Of a stretch of 33,269 nucleotides of DNA, positions 17,490-28,008 are shown in pieces. Positions within the stretch are counted from its first letter, which is position 1, and each line of letters starts with the position of its first letter. A program made the position numbers and the translations under genes. The notes beneath the pieces were generated by a model, which saw only the letters and a program-made list of their open reading frames with translations, was not told the DNA's origin and did no database searches. The stretch covers positions 1-33,269 of the forward strand of contig JAMPXY010000012.1 of the NCBI GenBank assembly GCA_023700945.1, in the 5' to 3' direction. The DNA comes from Alphaproteobacteria bacterium (GTDB lineage Bacteria > Pseudomonadota > Alphaproteobacteria > Micavibrionales > Micavibrionaceae).

Positions 17490-18494
17490 TTACGCTGCCG
17501 CTCTCTTCAGAAAATCTGCATATTTCATGTTCGGGCGCGGGCCCATGTGGCTAATGACTTCGGCCGCCGCCATTGATGCCAACCGTCCACAGACGTCTAA
17601 AGAATTCCCGCGGGTATAGCCATACAAAAATCCGGCAGCATATTGATCACCTGCTCCGGTCGTATCCACAACTTTGCTAACCGGCTCCGCCGGAACCTCG
17701 ATAATTTTATCACCCGCAATAATGACGGATCCCTGCGCGCTACGCGTGATCACAATAATCTCGCATACCCCTTTCAGGGCATCGACGGTCTCTTCAAAAT
17801 TTGAGGTTTCGTAAAGAGACATCGCCTCATGTTCGTTGGCAAATAAGATATCGACATGATTTTCAACAAACACCTGAAAATCTTCACGGTGACGATTGAC
17901 GCAGAACGGATCAGACAACGACAGCGCTACCTTGCGCCCGGCCTTATGTGCCAGCTCCGAAGCAACACGGAAAGCCTCCTTGGCCTGCGGCGGATCAAAC
18001 AGATATCCCTCCATGTAGGTAATTTTTGCGGATGAGACAAGGTCCTCGTCAATATCAATCTGCGACAACTCAACTGCCGCCCCGAGGTAGGTATTCATGG
18101 TGCGCTGTCCATCAGGGGTCACCAGAATGAGGCAACGCGCAGTCGGCGCGCCAATCGCCAAGGGCTGGGTATTGAAAACAACCCCTTGCGCCTTCAGGTC
18201 ATGACGAAAAACATCCCCCAACTGATCCTGCGCGACCTTGCCAATATAGGCACCCTTGCCCCCAAAAGATGCAAACCCAGCGATGGTGTTGCCCGCCGAT
18301 CCCCCGGACGATTCAATTCCCGGCGGCATCTGGCCATATAGCTCAACTGCACGCATCTCATCAATCAAAGTCATACTGCCCTTGACCATGCCATTCATTT
18401 TTTGCTGATGCTCTATGAAAGCCTCATCCGTCTGAGCCAATACGTCGACAATAGCGTTACCAATTGCCAGAAGATCGAATTTGGGATCTTTCAT
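17490..18494 (-). CDS. PfkB-family sugar kinase, adenosine-kinase-like
   Basis: This 334-residue ribokinase-fold kinase has the N-terminal GNAIVDVLA, the SGGSAGNT motif (63-70) that binds the sugar, and the C-terminal DTTGAGD (277-283) with catalytic D283. I recall alphaproteobacterial relatives annotated as adenosine kinase, which phosphorylates adenosine to AMP in purine salvage, and MKGSMTLID-like and YLGAA elements fit that group. Substrate proof is lacking, and sugars such as fructose are alternatives. An AAGGAA lies eight bases before the ATG. It is divergent from a TetR-type gene across a 66-bp gap that holds a palindrome, so the regulator may control it. Confidence 0.85.
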   Translation of the reverse strand: MKDPKFDLLAIGNAIVDVLAQTDEAFIEHQQKMNGMVKGSMTLIDEMRAVELYGQMPPGIESSGGSAGNTIAGFASFGGKGAYIGKVAQDQLGDVFRHDLKAQGVVFNTQPLAIGAPTARCLILVTPDGQRTMNTYLGAAVELSQIDIDEDLVSSAKITYMEGYLFDPPQAKEAFRVASELAHKAGRKVALSLSDPFCVNRHREDFQVFVENHVDILFANEHEAMSLYETSNFEETVDALKGVCEIIVITRSAQGSVIIAGDKIIEVPAEPVSKVVDTTGAGDQYAAGFLYGYTRGNSLDVCGRLASMAAAEVISHMGPRPNMKYADFLKRAAA

Positions 18495-20475: not shown

Positions 20476-20581
20476 TGCACGCCTTCTCCACCATGACTTT
20501 AATCAATTTAATTGCTTTTCAGTACCCAGGTAACCAAAATGTGAGTTAAAATAAGGAGATACACGGGGAGACTTATTGAGA

Positions 20582-21517
20582 ATGATTATCGTTTTCGGCT
20601 CTATCAATATGGACATCTTTATGCCGGTCGAGCATCTGCCCGTGCCCGGCGAAACCGTCTTATCACCCGGCTATGAAATGTCTCCCGGCGGCAAGGGTGC
20701 CAATCAGGCGCTGGCGGCCGCCCGCTCCGGTGCCAAAGTGGCGATGATTGGCCGGGTCGGTGACGACGGCATGGGTGCCCGGGTTCTGAATAATTTGCGT
20801 CGCGCCGGGGTTATGACGTCCGGCATAGTCCAATCCGAGCAGTCAACCGGCTGTGCTGTGATTGCCCGCGATGCCAACGGTGAGAACCAGATTTTAGTGG
20901 CCCTAGGGGCCAACGCCGACGTTATTCACGACCAGATCCCTGATGAAATTCTAGGCAATCGCAATATGGTGGTGATGCAAAACGAAATCCTGCCTGAGCA
21001 AAACTGGATGATCATTGAGCGGGCTGCGGCCTTGGGCGCCACGACCATTCTCAATCTGGCTCCGGCCATACATATCCCCGAACATATCCTGAAAAAACTG
21101 GACTATCTGATCGTTAATCAGATTGAAGCCCGACAGATTGCAGCCGCAATGAATCTCGAGGCCGAAAACCATGAATCACAGATCGCAGGTGCCCTCTCCC
21201 GCATGGGGGACCTGACTTGTATCGTCACTATGGGTGAACGAGGATCATTTGCCATTACGCCTGATGGACAGGAAATTCATGTCCCGGCGCTTGAGCTTGA
21301 GCAGTTTGTCGATAAAACCGGGGCAGGCGATGCTTATTGCGGAACATTTGCCGCAGCCTTGCATGCCGGATTACCGCTGACCGAGGCCCTAAAGCGTGCA
21401 GCCGTTGCTGGATCACTCACCTGCCTGAATAAAGGTGCCCAGCCGTCTTTCCCCTACCTTGGCGACATAGAAGAAAACCTCGCCAAGCTGGGCGAGGTTT
21501 CCGTGAAAGCGATCTAA
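20582..21517 (+). CDS. rbsK: Ribokinase (PfkB family)
   Basis: This 311-residue ribokinase phosphorylates D-ribose at O5. The N-terminal GSINMDIF, the sugar-binding SPGGKGANQA (34-43) and the C-terminal DKTGAGD (244-250) with catalytic D250 are all present, as is NQIEA of the VNQ(N)E motif. Start choice is uncertain: the ATG at 20582 gives the usual MIIVFGSIN N-terminus, but a TTG at 20576 has GGGGAG five bases upstream and would add two residues. No ribose transporter or repressor gene is visible nearby, so ribose may come from nucleoside breakdown, or the true substrate could be another sugar. Its 3' end encodes a strong hairpin. Confidence 0.9.
   Translation: MIIVFGSINMDIFMPVEHLPVPGETVLSPGYEMSPGGKGANQALAAARSGAKVAMIGRVGDDGMGARVLNNLRRAGVMTSGIVQSEQSTGCAVIARDANGENQILVALGANADVIHDQIPDEILGNRNMVVMQNEILPEQNWMIIERAAALGATTILNLAPAIHIPEHILKKLDYLIVNQIEARQIAAAMNLEAENHESQIAGALSRMGDLTCIVTMGERGSFAITPDGQEIHVPALELEQFVDKTGAGDAYCGTFAAALHAGLPLTEALKRAAVAGSLTCLNKGAQPSFPYLGDIEENLAKLGEVSVKAI
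21475..21500 (-). terminator. Terminator embedded in the ribokinase 3' coding end
   Basis: A 10-bp stem (AAACCTCGCC / GGCGAGGTTT) with a 6-base loop lies inside the last ribokinase codons. Read on the minus strand it is followed by TTTTCTTCT, so it fits a Rho-independent terminator for the convergent gene whose stop is at 21531. Confidence 0.65.
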
Positions 21518-21530
21518 ATCCTCAAGCGCC

Positions 21531-22277
21531 CTAAGGTTTCATACCGGGCAGATTGGCAGGCTGTGGCAATGTCAGAGTCGACAGGTCCTGATAGATCTGC
21601 AAGCCGACTGGCAGGGTGAACTGCACCTTACCCGCTGAGGAAATATAGGGTTTACCATGAGCACCCTTTTGTTCTTGCAATCTTACAACCGTAACAACAC
21701 CGGTCTGATCCTCTTGTGCCGTGATATCGTGGCACACAGGCTTGACATCGTTGGGTAAGGGAAAACCAAAGACACGGGCAAAGTTATTAGCACCTTCAAT
21801 ACGCGGAGCCTTCGGATCAGTGCCATAACCCCATTTATGTAAGCTTGCGAGATGAATATTGGTCGCCGCCAGTGCCTCATACAGACGGGTTGGGGTATCC
21901 TCATGATAGAATAGTACCACCACCGGACGGCTGCTGAACTGGGAAGACAAGGCATCAGCAATTTTTGCCGCACGCACATCTTCGCTTTCGAGCGCTGCAA
22001 TTTCAGTCGCACTGGCATTCTTGGCTGCCATAATATTGGCCATACTGTAATTAGAATTTACCGCCACCAGAAAGGCATCATAAGGTGATGCCACCTGATC
22101 ATTGATAAACTGAAAACCAGCGAGGGTCGTAGGAACCGTGCGTTCCGCAGGATAGGCATAGGTACCATTGGTGCAATGGATATTATGAACACCCATCATA
22201 TCCAGCACGCGGGAGGCAGCATGGGCTGTATCAAGGACATCGTGGCCCTTCAGTTTCACCAGAATCGGAAACGTCAT
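21531..22277 (-). CDS. RfaE/HldE-type nucleotidyltransferase-like protein lacking the HxGH motif
   Basis: This 248-residue soluble protein has several blocks of the cytidylyltransferase-like domain of heptose-1-phosphate adenylyltransferase in the right order: CTNG (35-38), FLVAVNSNYS (69-78, compare VGVNSDAS), LESEDVRAAKIADAL (96-110) and EDTPTRLYEAL (126-136). The catalytic HxGH, expected just after the TNG, is missing; that segment reads TNGTYAYPAERTVPTT. A second half (~140-248) with WGYGTDP, PRIEGANN and CHDITAQEDQTG matches nothing I know. It could be an inactive or altered transferase. The assignment is from motif comparison by eye. The gene ends 13 bp from the ribokinase stop, and a TTGTCA -35-like box lies upstream of its start. 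Confidence 0.6.
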   Translation of the reverse strand: MTFPILVKLKGHDVLDTAHAASRVLDMMGVHNIHCTNGTYAYPAERTVPTTLAGFQFINDQVASPYDAFLVAVNSNYSMANIMAAKNASATEIAALESEDVRAAKIADALSSQFSSRPVVVLFYHEDTPTRLYEALAATNIHLASLHKWGYGTDPKAPRIEGANNFARVFGFPLPNDVKPVCHDITAQEDQTGVVTVVRLQEQKGAHGKPYISSAGKVQFTLPVGLQIYQDLSTLTLPQPANLPGMKP

Positions 22278-22656: not shown

Positions 22657-23172
22657 TTACTTTTTAGCCGGGGCATGTCGCCGATTATAACGCTGGCAGG
22701 CCTCATGCAGTTCAGCAATCAACAGACGTCCTTCTTTTCCGCCATTTCCACGTAGCTGGCTGGACATGATGATATGGAGAGTTTTGCGATGAATATTTAC
22801 AATCTCATAGGCATCATCATTAAAGCTCTCCAAATTTTCGAGAAAATCGAGGGCAATATCAGCAACATCGCTCAGCAACGGAAATTTGAACATTGCTCCG
22901 TTCGCCTTCAACTCCATAATCGGACCGATCACCCGCCCCACTGACTCCTTCGTACGATTATCTTCGACCCGCACTACCTCAAGGGATTTATCAAGGCGCC
23001 CAAGAATAGCCATAGCAAAGTTGGTGAAATCGACATCATTTTTTTGAATGAAACTCTCGGCACGTTCCATCACCGCAGGATCTATCCCGCCATACCCGGC
23101 TTTTGTACGCAGGGTATTCGGAGGGTTGTAAAATTTGGCTTTAGAGCTTTTTTTCTTGGTTTTCTCAGTCAT
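22657..23172 (-). CDS. Helical protein of unknown function in a response-regulator operon (171 aa)
   Basis: I do not recognise the family. This Lys-rich, mostly helical 171-residue protein has a basic N-terminus (MTEKTKKKSSKAKFYNPP) and a helical core with LGRLDKSLEVVRVEDNR and the segment around LLSDVADIALDFLENLE. The C-terminal half has H128 and H133 in IVNIHRKTLHIIMSSQLRGN, followed by a conserved-looking LLIAELHEACQRY, which loosely resembles the His helix and following turn of an Hpt phosphotransfer domain. It follows the response regulator by 17 bp, so it may be its partner. The Hpt idea is an inference from spacing of a His helix and not a family match. Confidence 0.7.
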   Translation of the reverse strand: MTEKTKKKSSKAKFYNPPNTLRTKAGYGGIDPAVMERAESFIQKNDVDFTNFAMAILGRLDKSLEVVRVEDNRTKESVGRVIGPIMELKANGAMFKFPLLSDVADIALDFLENLESFNDDAYEIVNIHRKTLHIIMSSQLRGNGGKEGRLLIAELHEACQRYNRRHAPAKK

Positions 23173-23189
23173 AACACTATCGGGAGTTA

Positions 23190-23780
23190 CTATTTATCAT
23201 GAAGGCTGGGTCCCACATTGCGTACATGCTCCTGCAGGTCTTTCAAAATGCGTTCGGTTTCGGAAGGATCAATCATATCAAGTTCAACATCCATAACATC
23301 ATCATCACGGCGACGCTGACCAACATAATCACCCTTGCGGCGACGGCGATCAGGTCCAAAAAACTGCCCGGAATCAACAAACTGACGCGGACGCTCAATC
23401 AGTTGCTCCACGCGGGTAAACAGATCCTTGGCGGTGAAGGGCTTCACCAGAAATTCTGTTACCCCGACATCACGGGCCTGCTCTACCCGAATACGGTGAC
23501 TGTAACCTGTCATCATAATGACAGGTACAAACTTGTTGGGAGAACGCGGATCACGCCTGATCATACGGATAAGTTCCAAACCATCAAATGGCTGCATCTG
23601 CCAATCGGTCAAGACGATATCGGGCTTGTAGCGGCAAAACTGGTTGAAAGCATCTTCCGGATTATCTGCTGTGTAAATAGCGGTAAATCCAAAAATTTTC
23701 AGCAACGACGACACCAACGACAACATCGGCTTCATGTCATCAACAACCAAAATCGATACTGCCTTAAATTGATAAACCAT
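23190..23780 (-). CDS. CheY-like response regulator with basic/acidic C-terminal tail
   Basis: The first ~125 of its 196 residues form a receiver domain: acid pair D14/D15 in LVVDDM, phosphoacceptor D59 in VLTDWQM, T91 in MMTGYS, and K113 in LVKPFT. The remaining ~70 residues form no recognised output domain: a basic stretch (GPDRRRRKGDYVGQRRRDDD) is followed by an acidic helix with METVELDMIDPSETER-like character, so output is probably by protein-protein contact. No sensor kinase is in the window. It is first in a minus-strand operon with a helical protein and a YjfB-like peptide, and it is divergent from the ThDP enzyme. Confidence 0.92.
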   Translation of the reverse strand: MVYQFKAVSILVVDDMKPMLSLVSSLLKIFGFTAIYTADNPEDAFNQFCRYKPDIVLTDWQMQPFDGLELIRMIRRDPRSPNKFVPVIMMTGYSHRIRVEQARDVGVTEFLVKPFTAKDLFTRVEQLIERPRQFVDSGQFFGPDRRRRKGDYVGQRRRDDDVMDVELDMIDPSETERILKDLQEHVRNVGPSLHDK

Positions 23781-25627: not shown

Positions 25628-27589
25628 TCAGGGAGCTGGCTTGAGCGGTTTGATGCTGGCACGCAATGATGGCTCAGAGGGGATCAGGGTCAATTCCCAT
25701 GTGGCCTTGGCTGGATTAACGTTATGAATTTGGCCGAGCAGCGCCTCTCCACGATGATAGCGTTTTAGCTCAAGCCCCGCCCCGTCTCGCAGCACTAGTT
25801 CAGCCTTGCCCCCATCAATCCGCCACGGTGTATTTTGCAAATCAGTCGCTGTATAACGCTGGCGCACACCTGATTGCAACACAGCAACCTCAATAAAATC
25901 ATTACCAATTTCATTGATAAAAACGCGAACAGGAGCAGCTTCCAATCTCTTCAGATCGGGGATTGCATGATATTTTTCGTAGTCGTGATTAACATCGCGT
26001 TCAATCCGACGGCGATCGTTGAAATGGGCAGCACTCTCATCAAGCCTTGCCAGCTCCTCATCGCTGATACCAATACCCCTGGTGCCCAATACCTTGTGCG
26101 CCGCCCTTAGATTTATAATATCTGGATAGCGCCTAATCGGTGAGGATACATGGGCATAGTAAAGCTGCCCCAATCCAACATGTCCCAAACTCTGTGATGA
26201 ATAATAAGCCCTTTGCGGCAAAATCATCCCGCCTGCGACACCGGCTTGCGCCGGTTCAAAATTGCGTGAAAGGAACGGCACCTGACCCGCCAGCAGAAAT
26301 TTCGCCACCAGTGCATTGGTTTGCACCATCAAAGTCTCGATGATCGACTTGCTGGCAAAACTAACCGGATTCTCTTTTAGCAGAACCTGCAACTCTGCAT
26401 TCAAACCACGGCGACGGCGTGTATCATGAATATCCCGGATCAGGTGAAAGCGCGGATCATCCCGTTCCATGAAGTCATAGAACTGGCCATAGGTTAATTG
26501 CTCGCGCGAACGGATAATCCCGGCAAAAACATCGTACCCCCTCATATTGCAATCCCAATCGAGACGCTGACGGACGACAAGCGCTGGACGGTCGGCGCTG
26601 GCCACCAGCGAGCATTTATTCGTACTTAAAATTGGGGGTAGCATGTGACTGGTGCGATCTTTGAGATAGAAGGTAATGCCACGCCTATAGGCCTCACGGT
26701 CAACAGCCGTATTGTAATGCACCAGTGCCGGGACATCGGCTATCGCGGTATAGAGCGAGTAACCATCACGCTCAATTTCCGTGGCGAAGGCATCATCAAG
26801 ATCGGTCGATCCCAACGGGTCAACTGTATAAAAATCAAGGTGACGCAGATCAATCCTCTGCTCAGTGCGCAATTTACGACGATTTAAATTATGGGCTTCC
26901 TTTAAAACATCGTCAGGGTGAGCATGGGCAATCTGATGTTTGGTAGCAATAATAACGCTGATCGGGGTTCCGCTATCTTTATCGCGGCGTTGATCACCCA
27001 CCACGGTTAAGACAGGATTGCGAATGTCGAAATCGGGCGGAAATTCTGCTAGAAACTGATGGGCAGCCTCTGCACCGGGGGGATCAGTCAGCGTAAAGAC
27101 ACCCTTTATCGAACGATCCAGCGGCGCAAAAGCTCCCGATTTTTGATTAAAAGTGCCGGTTAGACGATAAGGCCGCCCCGGATGCATATGCGCCAGAAAA
27201 CGTGCCCGCAAGGCTGGCCCCTCACCCCGCCCTAGCGCCACCACAATCCGGTCACCTTCCTGCAACTTATTCTTGGCCATATCCGCATGCGATAGCGTCG
27301 CCGTAACCCCAAGATCAGATGGTAATTGGCTGATCGTGATCGGCACACGCCTGTGTCCCGGCGCAGCCCCGACTGTGGCATAGGCAACATCCGACCAGGG
27401 CACCGTCGCCAGATAGCCGCGACGACCGCTTGCCATCGCCCGCTTCTCCGCCAGCAATTCCTTTAGGAATTGGTCAATTACAGAAACTTGCGCGGCCTCT
27501 ACCCCCGACAGATTCAAAAGCGCAACACGGCTTAGTGGTGACGGGTTCATTGCCAGCCACTGCAGTATTTGCTCTTTATTGACGCTCAC
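25628..27589 (-). CDS. rnr: RNB-family 3'-5' exoribonuclease (RNase R-like, divergent)
   Basis: It is a processive exoribonuclease of the RNase II/R family that degrades structured RNA. The catalytic Asp cluster DPLGSTDLDDAF is intact (D257, D263, D265, D266 with the preferred start), and YAHVSSPIRRYPDI with the conserved Arg is present. The N-terminal cold-shock-like part and the C-terminal S1-like part (from ~590) are divergent, and there is no Lys-rich RNase R tail; the protein is short at 653 residues. Start choice: the frame is open to a TTG at 27721 overlapping the phhB stop, but the added 44 residues look non-coding and hold a promoter-like pair, so GTG 27589 (or GTG 27613) is preferred. 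The name is from family, not proof of RNase R over RNase II. Confidence 0.85.
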   Translation of the reverse strand: MSVNKEQILQWLAMNPSPLSRVALLNLSGVEAAQVSVIDQFLKELLAEKRAMASGRRGYLATVPWSDVAYATVGAAPGHRRVPITISQLPSDLGVTATLSHADMAKNKLQEGDRIVVALGRGEGPALRARFLAHMHPGRPYRLTGTFNQKSGAFAPLDRSIKGVFTLTDPPGAEAAHQFLAEFPPDFDIRNPVLTVVGDQRRDKDSGTPISVIIATKHQIAHAHPDDVLKEAHNLNRRKLRTEQRIDLRHLDFYTVDPLGSTDLDDAFATEIERDGYSLYTAIADVPALVHYNTAVDREAYRRGITFYLKDRTSHMLPPILSTNKCSLVASADRPALVVRQRLDWDCNMRGYDVFAGIIRSREQLTYGQFYDFMERDDPRFHLIRDIHDTRRRRGLNAELQVLLKENPVSFASKSIIETLMVQTNALVAKFLLAGQVPFLSRNFEPAQAGVAGGMILPQRAYYSSQSLGHVGLGQLYYAHVSSPIRRYPDIINLRAAHKVLGTRGIGISDEELARLDESAAHFNDRRRIERDVNHDYEKYHAIPDLKRLEAAPVRVFINEIGNDFIEVAVLQSGVRQRYTATDLQNTPWRIDGGKAELVLRDGAGLELKRYHRGEALLGQIHNVNPAKATWELTLIPSEPSLRASIKPLKPAP

Positions 27590-27664
27590 AGATGTCCCAG
27601 ATTTATTAGCCACGAAGTAGCCTGCCCTTTTCGTACGCCCCAGATTATGACTTATGTATATTCG

Positions 27665-27694
27665 CGTATAGCGGATCAGCGCCCTGTCTGGCAA
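27665..27694 (-). promoter_or_regulatory. Candidate promoter for the RNB exoribonuclease
   Basis: On the minus strand TTGCCA (27694-27689) and TATACG (27670-27665) are separated by 18 bp. This implies a transcript start near 27657 and a leader of about 70 bases to the GTG at 27589, which argues against the longer TTG-initiated frame. Confidence 0.4.
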
Positions 27695-27717
27695 GTTTAA
27701 AGTGGGGCAACGCCGCC

Positions 27718-28008
27718 TCAAGCGGCATATTTATCCATGTCTGTTGCCATGCGAAAATCCAGCTCTGTCAGTCCCTTGGCATCATGAGTGGTTAATCTGA
27801 CCTCGACCCTGTTGTAGACATTAAACCATTCCGGGTGATGATTGATTTTCTCCGCCAGCAATGCTGCCCGGCTCATAAAAGCCCAGGCCGCACTGAAATT
27901 ACGAAAACCAAATTTCTTGCTGATTGCCAGACCATCGTCGGACAAAACCCAGCCGGGCAAAGCAGCCAGACGTGCAGTGACATCCTCAGGAGCAAGTTTG
28001 TCGGGCAT
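27718..28008 (-). CDS. phhB: Pterin-4a-carbinolamine dehydratase
   Basis: It dehydrates 4a-hydroxytetrahydrobiopterin made by pterin-dependent hydroxylases and also has roles in other organisms. At 96 residues it is typical. The family signature is clear: [20 protein letters not shown], the pterin/His segment [22 protein letters not shown], and [10 protein letters not shown]. The start at 28008 has GAGAGG seven bases upstream; an earlier ATG at 28086 would add 26 residues that overlap the divergent zincin gene. A phenylalanine hydroxylase partner is not visible here. A perfect TATAAT lies on the same strand at the complement of 28034-28039, upstream of the ATG. Confidence 0.95.

Follow-up and report, generated by a model that had tools for sequence, protein, structure and literature searches.

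Introduction

Enzymes of the HldC and HldE type attach a nucleotide to a sugar of the LPS core, and elsewhere in their superfamily CTP:glycerol-3-phosphate cytidylyltransferase (2b7l), NadD, PanC and FAD synthetase all carry a catalytic HxGH-type motif. The consequences of losing this motif have been described for the FAD synthetase of Corynebacterium, in which it is present and where Ala at either HxGH histidine abolishes activity; the mutants bind ATP very weakly without Mg2+, whereas with Mg2+ H28A shows a large effect and H31A a small one, and the affinity for the acceptor FMN is hardly altered (PMC3509593). In HldC, the roles of the substrate motifs were assigned by docking, without a substrate complex (PMC7993394). 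A non-exhaustive literature search found no known relative in which HxGH has been lost.

Here we analyze a gene, referred to below as X, located on a contig of 33,269 nucleotides (JAMPXY010000012.1, the window) from an alphaproteobacterium of the family Micavibrionaceae. The original prediction, made from the letters alone, had described its product as an RfaE/HldE-like nucleotidyltransferase without HxGH, had linked it to a ribokinase gene converging on it from 13 bp away, as in a divided HldE, and had proposed two checks, namely structure prediction against RfaE/HldE folds and a survey of the conservation of the ribokinase neighbour.

Results

Gene X and its distribution

The open reading frame of X and the positions discussed below are collected in Table 1. 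Compared with its counterpart in a sister genome, which belongs to the same genus, the X protein shows 85% identity and a dN/dS of ~0.03 (with dS near saturation), a value similar to that of its neighbour genes. Hence, X is a real, conserved protein-coding gene, and the same ratio rules out a pseudogene. Searches against Pfam, NCBIfam and PADLOC yielded no accepted match, and the absence of a PADLOC match also applies to X as a defence gene. The lowest identity (77%) among the six genes compared with the sister genome was found for a 171-aa protein (window 22657-23172, -), which is without a Pfam match and stands directly after a response-regulator gene (23190-23780, -).

Table 1. Features of the X locus and of the encoded protein, with their positions in the window
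Feature	Position	Strand	Remarks
X (HldC/HldE-C-like protein without HxGH)	21531..22277	-	ORF and translation, 248 aa
Ribokinase-family (PfkB) gene	20576..21517	+	Convergent neighbour of X, judged outside the unit
TNG, residues 36-38	22164..22172	-	Predicted sugar-phosphate site in HldC; N37 and G38 invariant (n=12)
VPTT, residues 48-51	22125..22136	-	hhalign places the HldE HxGH here; P49 invariant
NSN, residues 74-76	22050..22058	-	NSD in most relatives
K86	22020..22022	-	Probable counterpart of HldC Lys69, with ~2 residues of uncertainty in register
R102	21972..21974	-	Aligned with Arg of EDR in HldC/HldE; invariant
EDTP, residues 126-129	21891..21902	-	ExTP motif; P129 invariant, T128 in 11/12
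KWG, residues 148-150	21828..21836	-	Counterpart of HldC KGG; K148 invariant
Family-specific C-terminal part, residues 155-236	21570..21815	-	Stands where HldC has its C-terminal helix, which bears the STT ATP motif

Within the order, X occurs in 12 of 142 genomes, always as one copy, and these genomes belong to 7 of 54 genera in three families. Profile searches of 385 genomes sampled from the class and 398 sampled from the phylum found the window copy only, and a phage, plasmid or viral origin was rejected, as no match was obtained in phages, plasmids or IMG/VR. The family is therefore small, patchy and, among the genomes sampled, restricted to Micavibrio-type bacteria. Concerning its history, within two genera the SucA proteins are 82-85% identical and the X proteins only 33-35% (SucA 85% and X 35% in one pair), and the X of genome G060 is nearer to the window copy, with 51% identity. 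These identities suggest a transfer of X between genera; a tree test holding such same-genus pairs together was still compatible with vertical inheritance (p 0.15 and 0.24), and the pattern may come from fast evolution as well as from replacement by transfer.

Relationship to HldC and HldE

The original prediction was built on four stretches, TNG (residues 36-38), VNSNYS (73-78), ESEDVRAAKIADAL (97-110) and EDTPTRLYEAL (126-136), said to follow the order of the HldE adenylyltransferase domain. This order is confirmed by hhalign, which aligned the 12-member X family with 25 HldE C-terminal domains at Prob 96.2 and a score of 61.9 over 111 columns, far above the maximum of 22.2 obtained in 100 column shuffles and the 13.5 of the reversed alignment. 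Against the HldE domain of the same genome alone the family profile reached a probability of 44, and against the NadD, the RibF and the neighbouring ribokinase of that genome all values were <0.3, i.e. no match. The best result of a PDB profile search with X was HldC (5x9q), in the same register and with an E of only 0.85, while a TIGR02199 search of the window genome found the true HldE and a RibF-like gene, but not X.

Two AlphaFold models were compared with known structures, one led by the window protein (pLDDT 86.5) and one led by the relative from genome G077 (pLDDT 92.8). In both, the top VIA-align match is HldC 5xf2, with Z 10.9, 3.4 A, 136 residues and 19% identity for the former, and Z 12.1, 3.1 A, 135 residues and 21% identity for the latter; the rows that follow it have Z 8.5 and 8.8, respectively, and the majority of rows in both lists are further members of the nucleotidyltransferase superfamily. 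CTP:glycerol-3-phosphate cytidylyltransferase (2b7l), FAD synthetase, NadD and PanC share the common superfamily (HIGH) fold with X (Z 7-9), and are more distant from it than HldC. Foldseek alone gave no match at E <= 0.001 for either model, and since its scores are weak, the assignment is based on profile, structure alignment and motif order together, according to which X very probably shares the HldC-type nucleotidyltransferase fold and ancestry. The profile comparison and the two models thus uphold the proposal of an HldE/RfaE-type nucleotidyltransferase-fold protein without HxGH, the suggested comparison with RfaE/HldE folds having placed HldC best in both cases.

X resembles HldC in the fold over ~135 residues, in TNG, NSD and ExTP, in the Lys of KGG and in the Arg of the EDR stretch, and differs from it by the absence of HxGH and STT, by insertions before and after NSD, by an identity of only 19-21% and by an additional C-terminal segment of ~80 residues. 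With the HldE C-terminal domain (RfaE domain II, TIGR02199) it shares the motif order and the profile-profile match given above, but it is not hit by TIGR02199, is without the kinase fusion and has likewise lost HxGH and STT.

Motifs lost and retained

The absence of HxGH, already noted for the window protein, extends to the whole family, with H-x-G-H present in 0/12 members and S-[ST]-[ST], which corresponds to the C-terminal STT ATP motif, also in 0/12. At the site of the lost HxGH, V48-P49-T50-T51 is adjoined by a conserved A53-G54-F55; the invariant P49, A53 and F55 may have a structural role or help to form a new active site. The HldC structural matches stop at residue 175 of X, and in the models the C-terminal part shows mostly pLDDT >80 to about residue 230.

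The HldC substrate motifs TNG, NSD, KG, ExTP and KGG are largely found in X, with the G of KG lost and KGG changed to KxG. N37, G38, N74, P129 and K148 are invariant in the family (n=12), and S75, K86, T128 and G150 are kept in 11 of the 12 members. At least 90% conservation is reached by 9 of the 13 predicted substrate-motif columns, versus 37/248 overall (hypergeometric P 7e-6), a P value that is only indicative since the test assumes independent columns and the motifs were chosen from the paper once the alignment had been seen. It should be noted that a division of the active site into two half-sites is not clean, as K69 of HldC is said to contact the nucleotide phosphate as well.

Genomic context

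In 8 of the 12 genomes X closely follows a TCA-cycle gene of its own strand, this being sucA in four (G060, G061, G009 and G082, with an overlap or a gap of up to ~100 bp), acnA in three genomes of one genus and fumC in one (G137). Directly after X comes sucB in G060 and G061, while one hypothetical protein stands between them in G009, and one hypothetical protein plus two further genes in G082; in the genus of G060 and G061, four genomes lacking X have sucA followed directly by sucB. The sucA-linked copies look like operon members. In the one genome scanned, a strong terminator-like hairpin parts acnA from X, and the window X is preceded by a terminator-like site, so the acnA-linked and window copies are probably separate units. 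The window copy is away from any TCA gene, the sucA of its genome being on another contig, and of the two copies that belong neither to the window genus nor to the eight TCA-linked genomes, one stands beside a fragment of an ABC-transporter ATPase (recognised only by eye) and the other beside an RNase R/II-like gene. TCA genes thus make up 3 of 6 distinct contexts, which is unlikely to be due to chance, a statement to be read with the TCA category having been chosen after the data were seen and genomes of the same genus not being independent.

Other loci of these regions are recorded here as separate observations. In many genomes of the Micavibrionales, one or two copies of a protein of ~180-200 aa with a SLPYRxGxWxS-like stretch immediately precede sucA, for example on G000:C81 (L098 168-776 and 780-1358, +). 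In some genomes sucA or X is followed downstream by a protein of ~331-345 aa with C-x-x-C near the N-terminus (L055:7634-8671, -; L058:4152-5147, -; L090; L099), with Pfam matches in 0/2 examined. In G043 an RNase R/II-like gene is located upstream of X, and the window holds an RNase R-like gene (25628-27721, -) that scores 209 bits versus an RNase R cut-off of 598. The window also contains a sugar-kinase-like gene (17490-18494, -), PfkB-like by eye (DTTGAGDQYAAGF), within ~3 kb of the ribokinase gene of Table 1.

Discussion

Two readings would explain X through known enzyme families. The only hint from the family searches, Pfam Hydrolase_6 (E 0.0077, 16.7 bits, weakly matched in 2 of the 12 members), would make X a HAD hydrolase, for which the probability is practically negligible, as the score is below the 27-bit Pfam cut-off, DxD, the nucleophile motif of HAD enzymes, is missing from the N-terminal stretch of X (KLKGHDVL), and the models do not support it, their matches being HldC and its superfamily with no HAD among the matches listed; this candidate was rejected. 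The ribokinase gene does converge on X at 13 bp and is a clear PfkB member (E 6.8e-56), and the two genes are adjacent in the sister genome as well, which would fit a split or repurposed HldE pair. This link, advanced in the original prediction, can hardly be credited: the genes are on opposite strands, and the survey of the neighbour found the pairing in 2 genomes of the window genus only and in 0/10 other members. In addition, among NCBIfam families the kinase matches best the ribokinase TIGR02152, which at 264 bits is below cut-off and still far above the 61 bits of rfaE_dom_I (HldE kinase), and the window genome has a separate complete HldE elsewhere, with the kinase and an intact TNGCFDILHYGH. 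An HldE-type match exists in all 12 X-carrying genomes, and no heptose-7-phosphate kinase was found fused or adjacent to X, its neighbour being the convergent ribokinase-like gene.

More weight is due to the idea that X is still an enzyme, with a chemistry rebuilt around the invariant R102, K148, Y151 and T153 and the new C-terminal segment, whose substrate would be a sugar phosphate or a related metabolite, with an NTP possibly still held in an unusual manner. Many invariant polar residues within KxGYGT and the retained motifs, the strong purifying selection, and the conservation and good model confidence of the C-terminal segment are consistent with it; however, none of the 12 members retains either signature nucleotide motif and the studied homologue needs HxGH for activity (PMC3509593), so we regard a rebuilt enzyme as rather unlikely. 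A role of X as regulator or partner of TCA-cycle enzymes, acting on the products of sucA, acnA or fumC or reading a linked metabolite, is suggested by its recurrent same-strand position in three of the distinct contexts and by the direct sucA-sucB succession in X-less genomes of the same genus. Against it stand the terminator-like sites upstream of the acnA-linked and window copies, the remoteness of the window copy from TCA genes and the choice of the category after the data were seen, which together leave such a partnership improbable. A combined version, in which the X family are pseudo-nucleotidyltransferases that respond to a sugar phosphate, possibly a precursor of LPS heptose, by adjusting the TCA enzymes beside whose operons they are repeatedly placed, appears more doubtful still.

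The reading we prefer, to which we give about even chances as a whole, is that X derives from an HldC/HldE-type sugar-1-phosphate nucleotidyltransferase, has since lost nucleotidyl transfer and binds a sugar-phosphate-like ligand. The nucleotide side would be gone, with a helix start bearing conserved P and A-G-F in place of HxGH and the new C-terminal segment in place of the STT tail, while the predicted sugar-phosphate side (TNG, NSD, K, ExTP, KxG) would have been retained under purifying selection. By analogy with the HxGH mutants of FAD synthetase, nucleotide transfer by X is not expected, although it could hold a sugar phosphate. The gene itself, its fold and ancestry and the family-wide pattern of lost and retained motifs are observed, and the inactivity, ligand class and role of X are inferred. 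X is likeliest a protein incapable of nucleotide transfer whose ligand is a sugar phosphate or something similar; a heptose- or hexose-phosphate-like compound might be bound as sensor, carrier or partner, with no nucleotide sugar made. Repurposing from an HldE/RfaE-type protein, as originally put forward, is plausible. Since the defining HxGH and STT were searched for and are absent, X should not be classed as an HldC enzyme. It fits best as a degenerate, uncharacterised branch of the HldC-type nucleotidyltransferases that is restricted to one lineage.

Binding of a heptose or hexose phosphate without turnover would make X a ligand-binding protein descended from HldC, of which a limited literature search found no example. 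That a conserved branch of the superfamily under selection has lost HxGH throughout offers a natural test of what the remaining half of the active site can do, and the TCA-gene neighbourhood offers a concrete place to seek the role of X.
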